From: Pomacea canaliculata
Taxonomy: Eukaryota > Mollusca > Gastropoda > Architaenioglossa > Ampullariidae
Reading direction: 5' to 3'
DNA: 64,000 bases
Assembly: GCF_003073045.1 (NCBI RefSeq)
Contig: NC_037590.1
Span: 1,054,001-1,118,000 of the forward strand
In this document: in pieces, positions 50,496-62,524 of the stretch
Layout: each line of letters opens with the position of its first letter
Numbering within the stretch: position 1 is the first letter of the stretch
Position numbers and translations under genes: made by a program
The notes under the pieces: model-generated
What the model was told of the DNA's origin: nothing
The model's input: only the letters and a program-made list of their open reading frames with translations
Database searches by the model: none

Positions 50496-53002
50496 ATGTC
50501 GGCTTTGAAGGCCCTCCTCGGCGACACGGTGCAGGGCAAACACGGGCCTGTCGACGTCCAGACGTTTGCCGAGGACGGTTACGTGGTGGGTGAGTGGCTC
50601 ATGGGGATAGTTACACTTTACAGTGTCTGCTGCTCGTGTTTTCCTGTGTTTACGTTTACATGTGTTAAATGATCATGTTACATGACATGCAAATAGTATA
50701 GTGGCATCATCTTTGGCGCTGACATGACTGTCACACAAGTCGCATCAGACAGTGACAGTGAAGATACAGGCAGGATGTAGACAAGAGATCAGAGAATCAA
50801 GTCCACACTTGCTGACTCACCTACACCCGCCATCTAAAGCAGGAAGAGTGCTGAGAGGCAAATGGTGGGTAGAGCAGACAGCGGTGAACAGTTCAGAAAG
50901 TCGACAGTTAATCCAGCAAAGTGACAGCCGGTCGACATGGCTTGGAGATCGTTAGATGATGAAGACAACAACAATGGCAAGAGAGGAAAACAGTCCACAA
51001 CAGCTGCAGACCAACTAAAAGCACACATCAACAGAAACATCAAACTGGAGGAAAAGCTAAGGGCACTACAAGAGGGAGGGGGCGGGAGAGACTAGGCAGT
51101 AAGGCCACGGGACATCGATCTGTTATATTCATACATGTTCACGTGTATTGTATGTCGATAGGTTTGTGTATGTCTACATACATCTCTTTGTCCTTATCTC
51201 TAACAGAGCCAGGGAGAGTGAGAGAAGACAAAGAACAGGAGTAGCAACATTGTTGTGACTGAATATATGTAATAGTCACATACAACAGTATAGCACATTG
51301 TTTACAGTGTAGCACATTGTTGTGACTAAATATTAGTCACATACAACAGTGTAGCACATTGTTTACAGTGTAGCACATTGTTGTGACTAAATATTACTCA
51401 CATACAACAGTGTAGCACATTTCTGTGCGCGTACTCACATACAACAGTGTAGCACATTGTTGTGACTGAATACTACTCACATACAACAGTGTAGCACATT
51501 GTTTAGTGTAGCACATTGTTGTGACGAATATTACCCACATACAACAGTGTAGCCAGACTCAGAAAGCTGCCGGCAGTAGATGATGATTCAGCAACTGTTA
51601 TCTCTGAGACTGTATGGAAGTGTGTTACAGGGTTAAGACCTCTTGCAAACACCTATCTTATTTTTTACATCTTATAATTACAGCCACCCTACAGATCACA
51701 CAGTGACTAGCCCCCTAGAGATTGGACTTACAATACCAGCGGCATACCTACCCCGACCCTCCATCCAGCACCAAACGACAAAGCCCGGTCACTAAATGCA
51801 CTAACCAGAAATGAGTCAAACGCATTCATTGAGTACAGAACTGGGGTTCACAGGAAAAAAATCAGATCGGGATCAACCAACCACCCACCCAAGGGATATA
51901 AACCCAAGGGGTATAAACTTACCCTCCCAGCTCCCTGAGGGACGGTATTTGGTGTACTCCGGGTGCGGCAAGCAGGTGTTAAACTCAGGTTTTCAGCGAG
52001 CTGAAACTTTTCGTTGAATTTAAATTTACGATGTGAAGAAAGTGCACATCACTGACCATTACAGAAAACTGTATCTAAATACATCATTGTGTGCGCTACA
52101 CCTTGTAGCAAGATGTCCGCCACTCGCAACCTCCATAACCTTGTCTGACTACGCCCACACACTACCTCCATCTCCTTTCATCCCTTCACACCCACATCAC
52201 CGATGATAACTTCATTCTACTCGTGCAGGCCTCTACTTCTCGGCCCACTGGTGTCCCCCGTGCCGCGGGTTCACACCCAAGCTGGCGGAGTGTTACAAAG
52301 CCTGTAAAGCGGCCGGAAAGAAGTTCGAGGTCGTCTTCCTCAGCTCCGACCGTGACCAGCAGAGCTTTGACGACTACTACAGCGAGATGCCCTGGCTGAC
52401 TGTGGGCTTCGGCTCAGATGTCAAGGTAAGGTGTAGTGACGTCAGGGTAAGGTGTAGTGACGTCAGGGTAAGGTGTAGTGACGTCAAGGTAAGGTGTAGT
52501 GATGTCAAGGTAAGGTGTAGTGACGTCAAGGTAAGGTGTAGTGATGTCAAGGTAAGGTATAGTGACGTCAAGGTAAGGTGTAGTGATGTCAAGGTAAGGT
52601 ATAGTGACGTCAAGGTAAGGTGTAGTGATGTCAAGGTAAGGTGTAGTGACGTCAGGGTAAGGTGTAGTGACGTTAAGGTAAGGTGTAGTGACGTCAAGGT
52701 CCGCAAGGCCACATTTATGCGACGAGTTGGACAGAGAGACTGTGTGAGGTGGACAGACTTATTATGGAATTAGTAGTCGAATGAGTGTACTTACTTCAGA
52801 CAGGGAAATCACTTACTTTTTCCCTATGCTGTTGATTTTGAAATTGTTTTTATGTTGACAGACCACTCTTGGCGAGAAATACGGTCTGCGGGGTATCCCC
52901 ACCCTGATTCTTGTTGATGGCCTCACAGGGGAGACGATCGCTTCCGACGGCCGCCAGAAGATTGATGCCGATCCTGACGGAAATAACTTCCCCTGGCGAT
53001 AA
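50496..53002 (+). CDS. tryparedoxin/nucleoredoxin-like protein, paralog A
   Basis: Three exons: 50496-50589, 52229-52425, 52862-53002 (143 aa, phases 1 and 0). The start is MSALKALLGDTVQGKHGPVD. Exon 2 begins [19 protein letters not shown], the tryparedoxin/nucleoredoxin active site with the CPPC redox pair. [20 protein letters not shown] follows, and then [13 protein letters not shown]. Exon 3 has [20 protein letters not shown], whose IPT carries the cis-proline of thioredoxin folds, and ends NNFPWR. There is no signal peptide or membrane segment, so it should be a cytosolic or nuclear disulfide oxidoreductase. Compared with nucleoredoxin it is a single domain. The exon 2 donor (AAG/GTAAGG) lies in a 13-copy, 21-base tandem array that stays open in frame, so other donors or intron retention could add 7-residue units. 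Paralog B follows 1.6 kb downstream. Confidence 0.92.
51225..51556. repeat. minisatellite in intron 1 of paralog A
   Basis: CACATACAACAGTGTAGCAC recurs five times at irregular spacing (about 55-80 bases), joined by ATTGTTTACAGTGTAGCACA and ATTGTTGTGACTAAATATTA segments. Confidence 0.85.
52420..52706 (+). repeat. 21-bp array of splice donors and CRE palindromes
   Basis: Thirteen head-to-tail copies of GTCAAGGTAAGGTGTAGTGA plus C or T, then a partial copy. The first unit spans the exon 2/intron 2 junction at 52425/52426. Every unit has GTAAGG preceded by AAG or AGG, so each could be a 5' splice site. There are no stops in the exon's frame: each unit adds Val-Lys-Val-Arg-Cys-Ser-Asp, or the Arg and Tyr variants. 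Read-through would stop only at 52771-52773. Eight junctions form the perfect CRE octamer TGACGTCA. Confidence 0.95.
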
Positions 53003-54571: not shown

Positions 54572-57500
54572 ATGTCTGGAATAAAGGAGATTCTTGGAGA
54601 GACGGTGCTGGGTAAGAACGGTCCAGTCGACGTGGATTCATTCGCCGAAGAGGGCTACGTGGTCGGTGAGTGCTTCAAGGGACGTCACTGCGGCGTGCTG
54701 CCAGTCTCTCTCTCTGTCTGATCTTTGTCTGACTCGGAGCGTGTGTCAACACTGTGTGTGAACGCTGTGGTGTGTGTGAAAACACTGTGTCAGTGTGTGA
54801 CCAGAAATGACAGACAGCGTGTTTTTAAATTTAGGTGTGACTGTTGAACCTCGTTTGCTCTTTTGCTGCTCTCTCTCTCCTTCCCTATGTCTCTCCCATA
54901 AGGTAGACATAAATAATAATAATGTGAACTTGAAACGTTCAGCATCACGACCAAGGTAGTCTGCGTTGACCAATAATGATAAATGAAAGATAACAGCTAG
55001 AGGTCAGTGAGGTACGTATAGACACAATGAACAACAAGATGAGGTACAAGATAACAGCCAGTGGACAGTGAGGTACAGATATAGACACACTGAACACCAT
55101 AAAGATGAGGTACAAGAGTAGACTGTACAGCAATGGATAAAGGTATGAAGGGACGTAGATATTATAAACAGTGTAAAGATAACAGCCAGTAGACAGTAAG
55201 GTACGTATAGGACACACTGAACAGTATAAAGATGAGGTACAAGAGTAGACGTACAGCAATGGATGCATGAAGGGACGTAGATATTATAAACAGTGTAAAG
55301 ATAACAGCCAGTGGACAGCGTATAGATACACTAAACAACATAAATATGAGGTACAAGAGTAGACTGTACAGCAATAGATGAAGGCATAAAGGGACGTATA
55401 CATATTATAAACAGTGTAAAGATAAGAGCCAGTAGACAGTGAGGTACGTATAGACACACTGAACAGCATAAAGATGAGGTACAAGAGTAGAATGTACAGC
55501 AATGATAAAGGTATGAAGGGATGTAGATACTATAAACAGTGTCAGATGGAGTCGTTATATGATGGTTAACATGACAGACAGTATTGCCAGGCAGTTAAGA
55601 ATAGTAATTCAGGGATAGTACTTTGAGAACAGATATGTTTTCAGCGAGTGCTTGAGTGTAGCCTTGATAAGTCGACTTTCCGTAAGTCGAAATTCTCCTT
55701 AACTCGAATTTTAAACATCAATTGGTTGGTTTCCAATTAAAGCAATACATATTCAACTTCTGTAGCTCTAATCAGCCTAGCCAAAAACTTCCACAACTCG
55801 AATAATTTTAAGCCGGTCAGCATGTTGAAACAATTTTGAAAATGCGTTGAAACACTTAAAATCGTGTACTCTTCCCCAGTCGACCCTGCTCTCCCATATT
55901 CTCCTTTCTGTATAGGAAGCATGTGTGCGACAAGCAGGGTGCCGGAGTGTCTTTAAAAGAATGATAAGAAATGTACATATGGTTAAAATTAAACATCCAT
56001 AGCGAAAAAACTTCCTTATCTCGAACCTTCCGTAACTCGATTTGTTTTGATCGGTCCTCTGAAGCTTCGACTTATAGAAGTTCGACTGTATATACGTATG
56101 TGCAAACATAATAAAATGCGTGTCATAGATCGTATATAGTCTCTTTCTCACTCTCTTGGACATAAACGTATACCTATCTACAAACAATAAAAATCCTTTT
56201 CAGCGGTTCATAGCTTATATATAGTTTCTCTCTCAAATATAGTGTGCATAAGTATTACAAACATATCTTATGCTTATCATAGTTCGTTTATAATGTCGCT
56301 CACTTACAGCTAGGTGCAAGTATGTATAAACATAACAAGAACGCGTGTCATAGCTGCTCACACACACACAGATGTACAACTGTGTATTATCATAAAAACG
56401 CGTATCTCACACACAGACACACACATGTGCAAGCATGTATAATCACACACGAGTGTGGATAATCATAATAAAAACGCATACCATAGCTGGTATGCAGTGT
56501 CTATATTCCTTGCGTTAATTTTCCTATTTATCTTCTCCACCTCGACTTCATTCTGCGCTGAACTATATCTAGCGCCTTAGTTGCCTAAGTTGTATGAAAG
56601 CTGTCACTCTCCTTTCTCTCTTCCCATGTAAATACAAATGTAATGGCGGTCCGGTGGCGCAACAATTAGCACCTGTAACCAGCACTGTGAGGGTTGGCTG
56701 TGGTGGGTTCAGGTCTCGGGCACGCTATTTTTTCTCTGCATGTTGTTGACAGGACTGGCTGCCTTGCCGTGATATAGCCTTAGCTGCCGGGTCGGCGTAA
56801 AACATCAATTGCTACCAATGCACCTCCGTAAATTGTTGCTAAGTCATTCTACAATGAATATCATGACAAGTCATCACCACGTGCTTTATTTAAAACGACA
56901 ACAGCCTGTCACACAGACTGTCAGCCACCAAAAACAATGGCTCAAGTGATTGTGTGTGTGTCGCGCGTGCGTGCTCGTGCTCTTATAAACCAGACATGGC
57001 AGTCTAAGCAGAACTAAAAGTCTATAAGATGTCAGCTGTATGCCACACCACACCCACAGCCACAAGAAAAGCTTCAATTACCACAGAGGAGGGAGTAGGT
57101 ACTCGCACACATAGACTGCAGCCCTCGTGCCTCCCTACCAGAAAGGCGGCAACGTAAATGGTTGTCACGGTAACGATAATAGACGTAATGACGTACCCTC
57201 TATACAACAGAAACTTCTCTGCTACTGTTTATTTGTTTTGTAAAGGATCCCATAAAAACCATAGCTCATTAGTTATTTGTAGATTGTGGCGAAATTCGAG
57301 AGACCCGGTCCGGGTGGGGGTGCGATGGAAGAATTGAGTTGGTGTACTTTCAGATAAGTTGACCCGGGGCCATGTGTTTCACACGCCCTAGTATAAACCT
57401 CGCCGCACGTATGAGGTTTAGCATGGATGCTGGCCAGATATGTGGTTCTTTCTGTTTACCCGGCAGTGAATTTGTCCAGAAAGAAAATGATCATCACGGA

Positions 57501-58779
57501 ATGGGTTGCATGCTCGATACGGACTGCCTGAATCAGTTTTTATCAGGGACGTTACTGGACTGTAGCAGTTGTGTTTTAATGTCAGCAGACAGCACGATTG
57601 TTTAGAAAAGCTGTGACTAGGTCTCACGGGAACTGACACTAAACTTTATTCCATAGCTGTTTGCTGTCTAAGACTTTCATTCTGTCTATCAAACTGACAC
57701 CACAAAATGGTTCAGTGACGAAGGGGAGAGAAGCTAGATTTTTGTTGTTAATCCCGTAGACAAGCTTTTATTTCTTTATATGATTTTATTCTTCCCTCTT
57801 ACGTATATTCTTGTGGCTACGTTTCTCTGTCGTCACCACCATCACATCCCAACCACACACACACTCTCTCTCTTTTGTTCTTAATGCCTGTGTTCCAGAA
57901 CTGATAAATACTGCATGTTCACGTGCAGGCCTCTACTTCTCGGCCCACTGGTGTCCCCCGTGCCGCAGTTTCACACCCAAGCTGGTGGAGTGCTACAAAG
58001 CCTGTCGAGAGGCCGGAAAGAAATTTGAGGTCGTCTTTCTCAGCCTTGACCGTGACCAGAAGAGTTTCGACGAGTACTACGGCGAGATGCCCTGGCTGAC
58101 TGTGGGCTTCGGCTCAGATGTCAAGGTAAGGTATAGTGATATCAAGATTATAGTGATGTCACTGTGAGTGAGTGATGTCTTGATAAAAGTTGATAAATAC
58201 CTCAGGTAGAGCTAACGATGACATCAGGGTGAGGTGTGGGTGAGGTCAGCTCAGTGTGGATCGACGTGTCTCTATGCTTTGTCTTCAGACTTCGTCAGCG
58301 CAGCAACGTGCAGGTAAAATGAGCTGCTGCCACCACAGACTTTTAATACTTAGTTCATTCCTTTCCTGTGTTCACTATGGAAAATACGAGATTGGATGGC
58401 TGAATGATCATGTGATCCAACATACTTCAGGCTACTGAGTTTTCTTGAAACAATTTATTTTGTTGAGTTTGTTTTAGAACGTTTTGTATTGTGTAGTCAC
58501 TAGGGTTAGTGTGGTCCTAGACGTAAAGGCAGGTAACTACATTTTCTATGATGCACATGTATTTTTTAATCTTTGCGTGCATTTTTTTTTTCCTGTCGCC
58601 AGACATCTTTGTCGCAAAAGTACTCCGTTTGTAGCATCCCGACCTTGATTCTGGTGGATGGCGCCACAGGGGAGACGATCTCCACAGACGGCCGCAACAA
58701 GGTCGCCAGTGACCCCAGCGGCAGTAACTTCCCCTGGTCAGGCATCCCCGACTCTCACTGGCGGTGCCATGTGTTGTAG
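54572..58779 (+). CDS. tryparedoxin/nucleoredoxin-like protein, paralog B
   Basis: Three exons: 54572-54665, 57929-58125, 58603-58779 (155 aa), with the same phases and the same lengths for exons 1 and 2 as paralog A. The start is [20 protein letters not shown]. Exon 2 carries [19 protein letters not shown] with the CPPC pair and ends [13 protein letters not shown]. Exon 3 has [20 protein letters not shown], with the cis-Pro retained and an extra Cys just before the IPT, where paralog A has Arg-Gly. Where paralog A stops after FPWR, this one continues with [13 protein letters not shown]. The predicted role is a single-domain cytosolic thiol-disulfide oxidoreductase. Its donor AAG/GTAAGG is present once, with only a degenerate second unit after it. 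Intron 1 (3.3 kb) holds a minisatellite, a pogo-like MITE and a SINE. Confidence 0.92.
54985..55545. repeat. about 122-bp minisatellite in intron 1 of paralog B
   Basis: About 4.7 copies of a unit containing ATAACAGCCAGTGGACAGTG, then AGGTACGTATAGACACACTG, then AAGATGAGGTACAAGAGTAG, then GAAGGGACGTAGATATTATA. Unit starts near 54991, 55053 (a short first copy), 55180, 55303 and 55424. Confidence 0.85.
55661..56088. mobile_element. pogo/Tigger-like DNA transposon MITE
   Basis: The right end read inward is CAGTCGAACTTCTATAAGTCG, flanked by TA. The left end is CCTTGATAAGTCGACTTTCC with its outer bases decayed. Both ends have the repeated AACTCGA/AAGTCGA motifs seen in pogo/Tigger terminal repeats (TTAACTCGAATTTTAA on the left, TATCTCGAACCTTCCGTAAC on the right). 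No transposase is recognisable. Confidence 0.6.
56645..56815 (+). mobile_element. tRNA-derived SINE, copy 1 (best preserved)
   Basis: A box in GGTGGCGCAACAATTAGCAC; B box in GGGTTCAGGTCTCGGGCACG. The body follows with CTCTGCATGTTGTTGACAGG, GCTGCCTTGCCGTGATATAG and GTCGGCGTAAAACATCAATT. Two further copies in this window (33975-34134 and 19215-19540, both minus) define the family. Confidence 0.85.
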
Positions 58780-61649: not shown

Positions 61650-61875
61650 CATGCGCGTGCGTGTGTTTGTGTGCGTGCGAGCGTTAGTGTGCGTGCGTGT
61701 GTTTGTGTGCGTGCGTGTGTTTGTGTGCGTGCGTGTGTTTGTGTGCGTGCGTGCGTTAGTGTGCGTGCGTGCGTTAGTGTGCGTGCGTGTGTTTGTGTGC
61801 GAGCGTGTGTTTGTGTGCGTGCGTGCGTTAGTGTGCGTGCGTGTGTTTGTGTGCGTGCGTGTGTTTGAGTGCGCG
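61650..61875. repeat. GTGCGTGCGTGT(G)TTT minisatellite
   Basis: Units of about 18-20 bases alternate GTGTGTTTGTGTGCGTGC with GTGCGTTAGTGTGCGTGC. Open frames on both strands across it are artefacts of the repeat. Confidence 0.9.
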
Positions 61876-62524
61876 CGCTGAATATCAAGTTTCCTTTGTC
61901 CAACATTCACCTACACGTGCAGTGGATCTGGGATGGCGATGCAGTAGATGGTTGCTTGACCTAAAAGTACCAACAAGACTCAAGATTAACTCAGCCCTGA
62001 CACTCGGACGAAATGTCGCTAAGGCTTATCAGCAACTGAGTCCTTGTATTTGGACACGTGGTCTAAATATAACATTTGGCCACATCAAGACCTCCTCATA
62101 AATAATGTGCTCTATCTATGACACTCTCCTTCCTTACTGTTTGCTTCCCTGCTTCCTCTTTGTGTCTTCTATGTTTGTCTTTAACTACTTATTTGTCTGC
62201 ACACCACTGTCTCCCTCCGCCCTCTGTATGCTGTCTCAAGCTGAGAGCATGCTCCCTAGTGAGCCAGACTATGATACTTAAATCACACAATTATTGTTAA
62301 CACTGCAAATAATGTTGTCATGTCCATATGAAGTGAGCTTCAGCTGTTTACTGTGTTGTGTTGTATCAGGACACAAGGAGAGACTGAGAAGTAAACTGTT
62401 GACTTTGCCCACAGTTGTCTGCACGCACAAGAGTTGCCCCCAGTGCGTAGTAGCCTGGGTTCCCACCTCGCCATATCTGACCCGCTTTTTTGTCTGCGGC
62501 CACATGCTGTGTGGCTGGTTGCAG

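Follow-up and report, generated by a model that had tools for sequence, protein, structure and literature searches.

A 21-bp minisatellite begins at a splice donor of a tryparedoxin-like gene in the snail Pomacea canaliculata

A minisatellite of 13 complete 21-bp units, arranged head to tail at positions 52426-52698 of the forward strand, begins exactly at the splice donor of exon 2 of a thioredoxin-fold gene (here gene A) of the golden apple snail, Pomacea canaliculata. Positions are those of the window, i.e. the whole stretch of 64,000 nucleotides that was analysed (NC_037590.1, positions 1,054,001 to 1,118,000). We favour, with a probability of about three in four, an origin of the minisatellite by growth from the exon/intron junction, with the first donor carrying out most of the splicing and nearby distal donors being used in frame on occasion. 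In support of this reading we count the intron site that gene A shares with its tandem paralogue gene B, the U1 pairing of donor 1, the decay of the units in gene B, the frames of similar arrays elsewhere in the genome and the precedents of human ABCA7 and IFI6. Most likely, the array was tolerated because it starts at the donor and is a by-product of tandem-repeat growth; it is probably mostly neutral.

The array and the gene that carries it

All three exons of gene A lie on the + strand. Exon 1 (50496..50589) starts at an ATG, continues as an open frame homologous to exon 1 of gene B and is followed at 50590 by the donor GTGAGT. Exon 2 (52229..52425) supplies the half of the thioredoxin fold with the WCPPC motif and closes after ...VGFGSDVK in phase 0, while exon 3 (52862..53002) encodes the IPT half and ends with ...NNFPWR and a stop codon. 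Intron 2 measures 436 nt; its remainder downstream of the array (52699..52861) contains a stop codon for read-through, TAG at 52771-52773, and closes with the acceptor AG at 52860-52861. Joined, the exons yield an intact reading frame for a protein of 143 residues with the WCPPC motif. The initial annotation had proposed a redox gene whose exons encode two halves of a thioredoxin fold, and database searches agree: the protein matches the Pfam family Thioredoxin_8 (PF13905) with an E-value of 1.4e-26 (93 bits, cut-off 27), and the closest solved structures are tryparedoxins, the best being 1o73 (E 1.7e-33). Judged by its sequence, gene A is thus tryparedoxin/nucleoredoxin-like.

Phase, homology and the paralogue identify 52426 as the authentic donor of exon 2. 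The site of intron 2 is common to genes A and B. Two exons on contig C4 also border on the equivalent position, both in that phase: the nucleoredoxin-like L007, which carries one additional residue ahead of it, stops there, and L011 starts there. Since gene B has the intron at this site and the two C4 exons border on its equivalent, a gain of this intron through tandem duplication of an AGGT segment was rejected. We also rejected the idea of a pseudogene, because the reading frames of genes A and B are open over their full length and each of the three exons has a dN lower than its dS.

Tandem Repeats Finder (TRF) reports the array at 52420-52700 with a period of 21, 13.4 copies, 93% matches, 0% indels and a score of 492, which is far above chance expectation. 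This bears out the earlier description of a 21-base unit present 13 times and straddling the junction of exon 2 and intron 2. The unit has the consensus GTAAGGTGTAGTGACGTCAAG, and unit 1 supplies the canonical donor of intron 2. Four of the 21 columns vary (8, 15, 18 and 20, with 2, 4, 1 and 3 minority cells, respectively), and all changes are transitions. Across units 4-10 the variant states alternate, as two-unit exchanges would give, and this suggests multi-unit exchange. Another large tandem array, with an 18-bp unit, 12.4 copies and a score of 362, is located at 61655-61877 of the window.

In the preferred reading, the array would have been seeded at the junction of exon 2 and intron 2 and would have grown in whole 21-bp steps, by slippage or unequal exchange. 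A short direct repeat, GAYGTCAAGGT, occurs at both the exon end and the array end and could have primed this process. Each copy comprises 9 bases resembling the exon end and 12 bases of the intron start, and consequently a full donor. The exon-adjacent donor at 52426 would take most of the splicing, so that the rest of the array leaves with the intron. Because the unit length of 21 is divisible by 3 and no unit has an in-frame stop, splicing that occasionally shifts to the next donors would leave the frame intact and add heptads of the sequence V-R-C-S-D-V-K. We infer that such minor isoforms occur and that the copy number is polymorphic.

Gene B consists of exon 1 (54572..54665, homologous to exon 1 of gene A), exon 2 (57929..58125) and exon 3 (58603..58779), all on the + strand. 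Its donor context at exon 2, GTCAAG before and GTAAGG after the junction, equals that of gene A. One complete 21-bp unit, differing from the gene A consensus at three positions, follows directly and is succeeded by decayed remnants (58126..58190, + strand). These remnants are decayed relatives of the unit, above chance: their alignment score of 16 was equalled in 1 of 2000 intron shuffles and in none of 2114 60-mers of the window. Donor 1 is kept, and the second unit has no donor. The third remnant retains a donor-like GTGAG, whose survival counts against the preferred reading. In the frame of gene B a stop occurs 39 nt into intron 2. Estimates of dS between the paralogues, based on few sites each, are 2.33 for exon 1, 0.23 for exon 2 and 1.17 for exon 3. 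The low value of exon 2 relative to its neighbours points to gene conversion; probably, the exchange took in exon 2 plus the start of intron 2, with the tract ending inside the repeat.

Donors, frame and their conservation among the copies

GTAAGG opens all 13 units, as had been stated initially, and in the frame of exon 2 each unit is open and reads V-R-(C/Y)-S-D-V-(K/R). Each of the remaining two forward frames meets a stop in every unit. Upon read-through of the whole array, translation would end at the TAG at 52771, 24 residues beyond unit 13; the 26-residue tail predicted earlier for intron retention is corrected accordingly. Calculated pairing with U1 amounts to -9.4 kcal/mol for donors 2, 3 and 12 and to -10.0 kcal/mol for the other ten, so that donor 1 is among the best of the 13. 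Stronger pairing is calculated for the exon 1 donor of gene A (-11.5 kcal/mol) and for the consensus donor (-14.0 kcal/mol). The claim that any of 13 near-equal donors would lengthen the protein by heptads without shifting the frame therefore holds at the level of sequence.

These features invite the reading that the array works as a splice-length ladder, in which several of the 13 donors are substantially used and cysteine-bearing heptads are placed between the halves of the fold, possibly in numbers that vary with the copy number. All 12 distal donors are in frame and ahead of the stop, U1 pairing is nearly equal over the donors, and the alignment of gene A with tryparedoxin 1o73 has a one-residue gap at a distance of three residues from the intron 2 junction, so a change in length looks tolerable at this place. 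However, the conservation of frame and donors lacks significance (see below), and the donor is gone from the second unit of gene B. We consider substantial use of several donors unlikely. A ladder with minor use of the near donors is plausible by analogy with IFI6 and ABCA7. At the other extreme, the array might form a copy-number-tunable dial of protein length, with many donors used, 0 to 12 cysteine-bearing heptads inserted at one loop and a range that differs between snails; this we hold to be more doubtful still. A further point, against the preferred reading, concerns the position of the dominant donor. When donors are duplicated in vitro, the one nearest to the acceptor is often favoured, and here this would be the donor of unit 13 rather than that of unit 1. 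Our search of the open-licence literature for competition between duplicated donors found no paper.

Are the constant donor and frame evidence of function? If four variable columns are drawn at random from 21, all of them miss the GTAAGG hexamer with p=0.23. Of the 63 possible single changes to the unit, only 2 introduce a stop codon, and together with a period that is a multiple of three this makes openness nearly automatic; such a period is itself a one-in-three event. In addition, the 9-nt donor does vary: three of the 13 units have G for A at its position -2, which is column 20 of the unit. Selection on the donors was therefore set aside as unproven. Retention of GTAAGG and of the frame in all copies is weak evidence of function and not by itself proof, the conservation being no greater than homogenised tandem copies give.

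Comparison with further arrays of the genome points the same way, with the caveat that both groups were found via the word AGGTAAG and are thus biased towards intact donors. GTAAG mismatches numbered 0/65 (gene A), 2/50, 12/130, 4/30 and 0/20 in five exon-anchored arrays and 0/70, 3/155, 0/30, 13/165 and 0/20 in five arrays taken as lacking exon support, although one of the latter, L076, has a short upstream open frame; L074, L079 and L090 were omitted. GTAAG is hence also kept in arrays without exon support, which argues against a working ladder. What stood of the initial interpretation is the position at the junction, the repeated donors and the in-frame heptads; conservation as a sign of function is weakened by the hexamer probability, the rarity of stop-creating changes and these mismatch counts.

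The unit contains the motif TGACGTCA, which is palindromic, so that its copies pair mutually. Accordingly, the array RNA is predicted to fold into TGACGTCA stems arranged like the rungs of a ladder, many donors being placed in internal loops, with an energy of -69.6 kcal/mol, compared with -40.2 kcal/mol for dinucleotide shuffles that do not preserve the repeat (z -8.24). When the wider pre-mRNA is folded, donor 1 and donors 5-13 are predicted to be largely unpaired (means of 0.62-0.84), but for donors 2, 3 and 4 pairing prevails (0.25, 0.30 and 0.44 unpaired). If this fold is real, it would work against the very donors with which a short ladder would begin.

With 13 donor-like sites in 273 nt, 10 of them more than half unpaired in the predicted fold between the paired palindromes, the array could alternatively attract U1: extra donors that are not cut would raise U1 occupancy and aid recognition of exon 2 or restrain premature cleavage. 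A 436-nt intron offers little to protect, however, and the fold follows largely from the amplified palindrome, while the control shuffles break up the repeat. The analysis lends no specific support to the U1-recruiting decoy suggested initially, and this reading appears very improbable to us.

The motif itself suggests an intronic transcription enhancer, as we take TGACGTCA to be a perfect match to the cAMP response element. The 8-mer is intact in 8 of 13 units. Yet it is lost in the other five, in four of them by C-to-T changes at CpG, as in neutral decay; it is absent from the remnants in gene B and occurs at five further places in the window. We rate an enhancer as the least probable of the readings considered. 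Another array rich in TGACGTCA, L003, is present on contig C1 near 35.79 Mb; it was the third match of a query with exon 2 and the array, and was discarded as a different array that shares TGACGTCA.

Donor-anchored arrays elsewhere in the genome

To find sister arrays, three AGGTAAG words at spacings of 5-35 bases were searched in 24 contigs (440,159,624 bases). The matches listed fall into at least 48 distinct places by hand count, of which 23 were read (the gene A array, 16 others and 6 more). For ten places, picked by eye, the upstream translations were searched against Pfam: two exceeded the curated cut-off (L078, Ras/Roc; L083, PK_Tyr_Ser-Thr), two remained below it (L075, cadherin, E 1e-5; L090, CH, E 3.2e-4), one gave a weak match (L079, fn3, E 0.094) and five, including L085, gave none. 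In a tally of the 23 places, with classes assigned by hand, five have Pfam support (the gene A array, L078, L083, L075 and L090), one has weak support, four have an open frame only and 11 have none; L077 is unclassed, and one start was not covered. At L077, three donor words follow an open frame that looks Ig-like by eye, and TRF found no tandem array containing these three words.

Five sister arrays lie at exon ends whose Pfam support varies in strength. On contig C2, a 34-bp array of at least 10 copies sits at the donor of a Ras-like GTPase exon (L078, near 26.45 Mb); each unit repeats 29 bases like the exon end, and the distal donors are out of frame or beyond a stop. The same contig has an array of about 26 units of 23 bp, with intermixed GTAAG and GTGAG donors, that sets in at the donor of a kinase-homology exon (L083, near 45.15 Mb). 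A donor-anchored 41-bp array follows a CH-domain exon on contig C6 (L090, near 0.29 Mb), the exon presumably resembling spectrin/plakin actin-binding domains, and a donor-anchored 42-bp array follows a cadherin-like exon on contig C1 (L075, near 45.36 Mb). The six arrays with any Pfam support have unit lengths of 21, 42, 34, 16, 23 and 41 bp, and two of six being multiples of three matches chance.

To check frames, we located [AG]GT[AG]AG sites in the 280 nt (genes A and B) or 700 nt (all others) that follow the exon, ranges that take in a few sites outside the arrays. L090 was left out; of the arrays included, L085 has no and L079 weak domain support. The share of distal donor-like sites that keep the frame and precede any stop was 12/12 in gene A, 0/3 in gene B, 0/11 in L078, 0/24 in L083, 0/4 in L085, 3/4 in L075 and 0/5 in L079. 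In four of the five sister arrays checked, every distal donor is thus out of frame or lies beyond a stop, which speaks against a working ladder. As their unit lengths mostly break the frame, such arrays seem to persist without use of their distal donors. For out-of-frame arrays in seemingly conserved genes we infer that the exon-adjacent donor does nearly all the work; alternatively, the genes tolerate the loss. Judging from its sequence, L075 alone of the five sister arrays checked is a candidate for a length ladder, and the in-frame trick may have been repeated in this cadherin-like gene. Against the preferred reading, gene A with 12/12 surpasses every sister array. This could be a hint of selection, on small numbers.

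The abundance of tandem donor words may also count against the preferred reading. AGGTAAG gave 534 tandem matches compared with 42 for the reversed word, in counts that overlap, stem in many cases from a few long arrays and are uncorrected for word frequencies. Four other control words gave 315, 1092, 200 and 233, so that AGGTAAG lies above four of five controls and below one. By the fourth fixed letter, AGGTAAG and the reversed word compare as 312 vs 9 (T), 76 vs 18 (A) and 20 vs 2 (C). There may be some attraction or retention of arrays at donors genome-wide, a point on which the preferred reading does not depend.

Comparison with known donor minisatellites

By its anatomy, known here from sequence alone, the gene A array is a splice-donor minisatellite of the ABCA7/IFI6 kind: its start coincides with the genuine donor of a coding exon, and every unit carries a donor-like sequence. 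It would carry a curiosity known from two human genes into a mollusc. Among the open-licence titles listed, none points to a donor array in a mollusc or other invertebrate, and searches of that literature for minisatellites at exon/intron boundaries and for Pomacea minisatellites together with splicing found no papers. The recurrence in one genome of donor-anchored minisatellites, mostly out of frame, is suggested by our survey. As in-frame and out-of-frame arrays coexist, the snail is a natural test bed for the choice among near-identical tandem donors. RNA and copy-number checks should be aided by resequenced snails, 173 of which have reportedly been studied (PMC11417965), and by the published assembly. 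The latter is at chromosome level (PMC6129957).

Four known systems resemble the array to different degrees. In human paralogues from segmental duplications, tandem repeats have remodelled exons and introns (PMC2812944). The likeness lies in minisatellite growth that alters gene structure in one of several paralogues, and the difference in that the survey covers human paralogues and does not appear to be donor-specific. Introns can arise when AGGT segments are duplicated in tandem; 24-bp arrays in fission yeast are among the examples (PMC4974935). Tandem units with AG and GT meeting at splice junctions are common to both cases, whereas the intron of gene A is shared with its paralogue and the donor side alone is amplified.

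Closer in anatomy is human IFI6 (6-16), which differs in being an unrelated, interferon-induced gene with another copy number and a unit of 12 bp. Its minisatellite reportedly, to go by the title of Turri et al. 1995, provides multiple splice donor sites. Two downstream minisatellite units are used as donors, resulting in three mRNAs (PMC4526556). Donor usage was shown experimentally in IFI6.

The nearest match is the VNTR in intron 18 of human ABCA7, which is composed of 25-bp units and whose first GT is the donor of exon 18; its alleles range from about 12 to about 427 units, retention of one unit amounts to 2 +/- 1%, and VNTR length goes along with skipping of a downstream exon and lower expression (PMC5954066). 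As in gene A, the array opens with the GT that serves the upstream exon as canonical donor; one-unit retention via an array donor occurs in ABCA7. In contrast to the 21-bp unit of gene A, the 25-bp unit of ABCA7 shifts the frame and hence provides no in-frame ladder.
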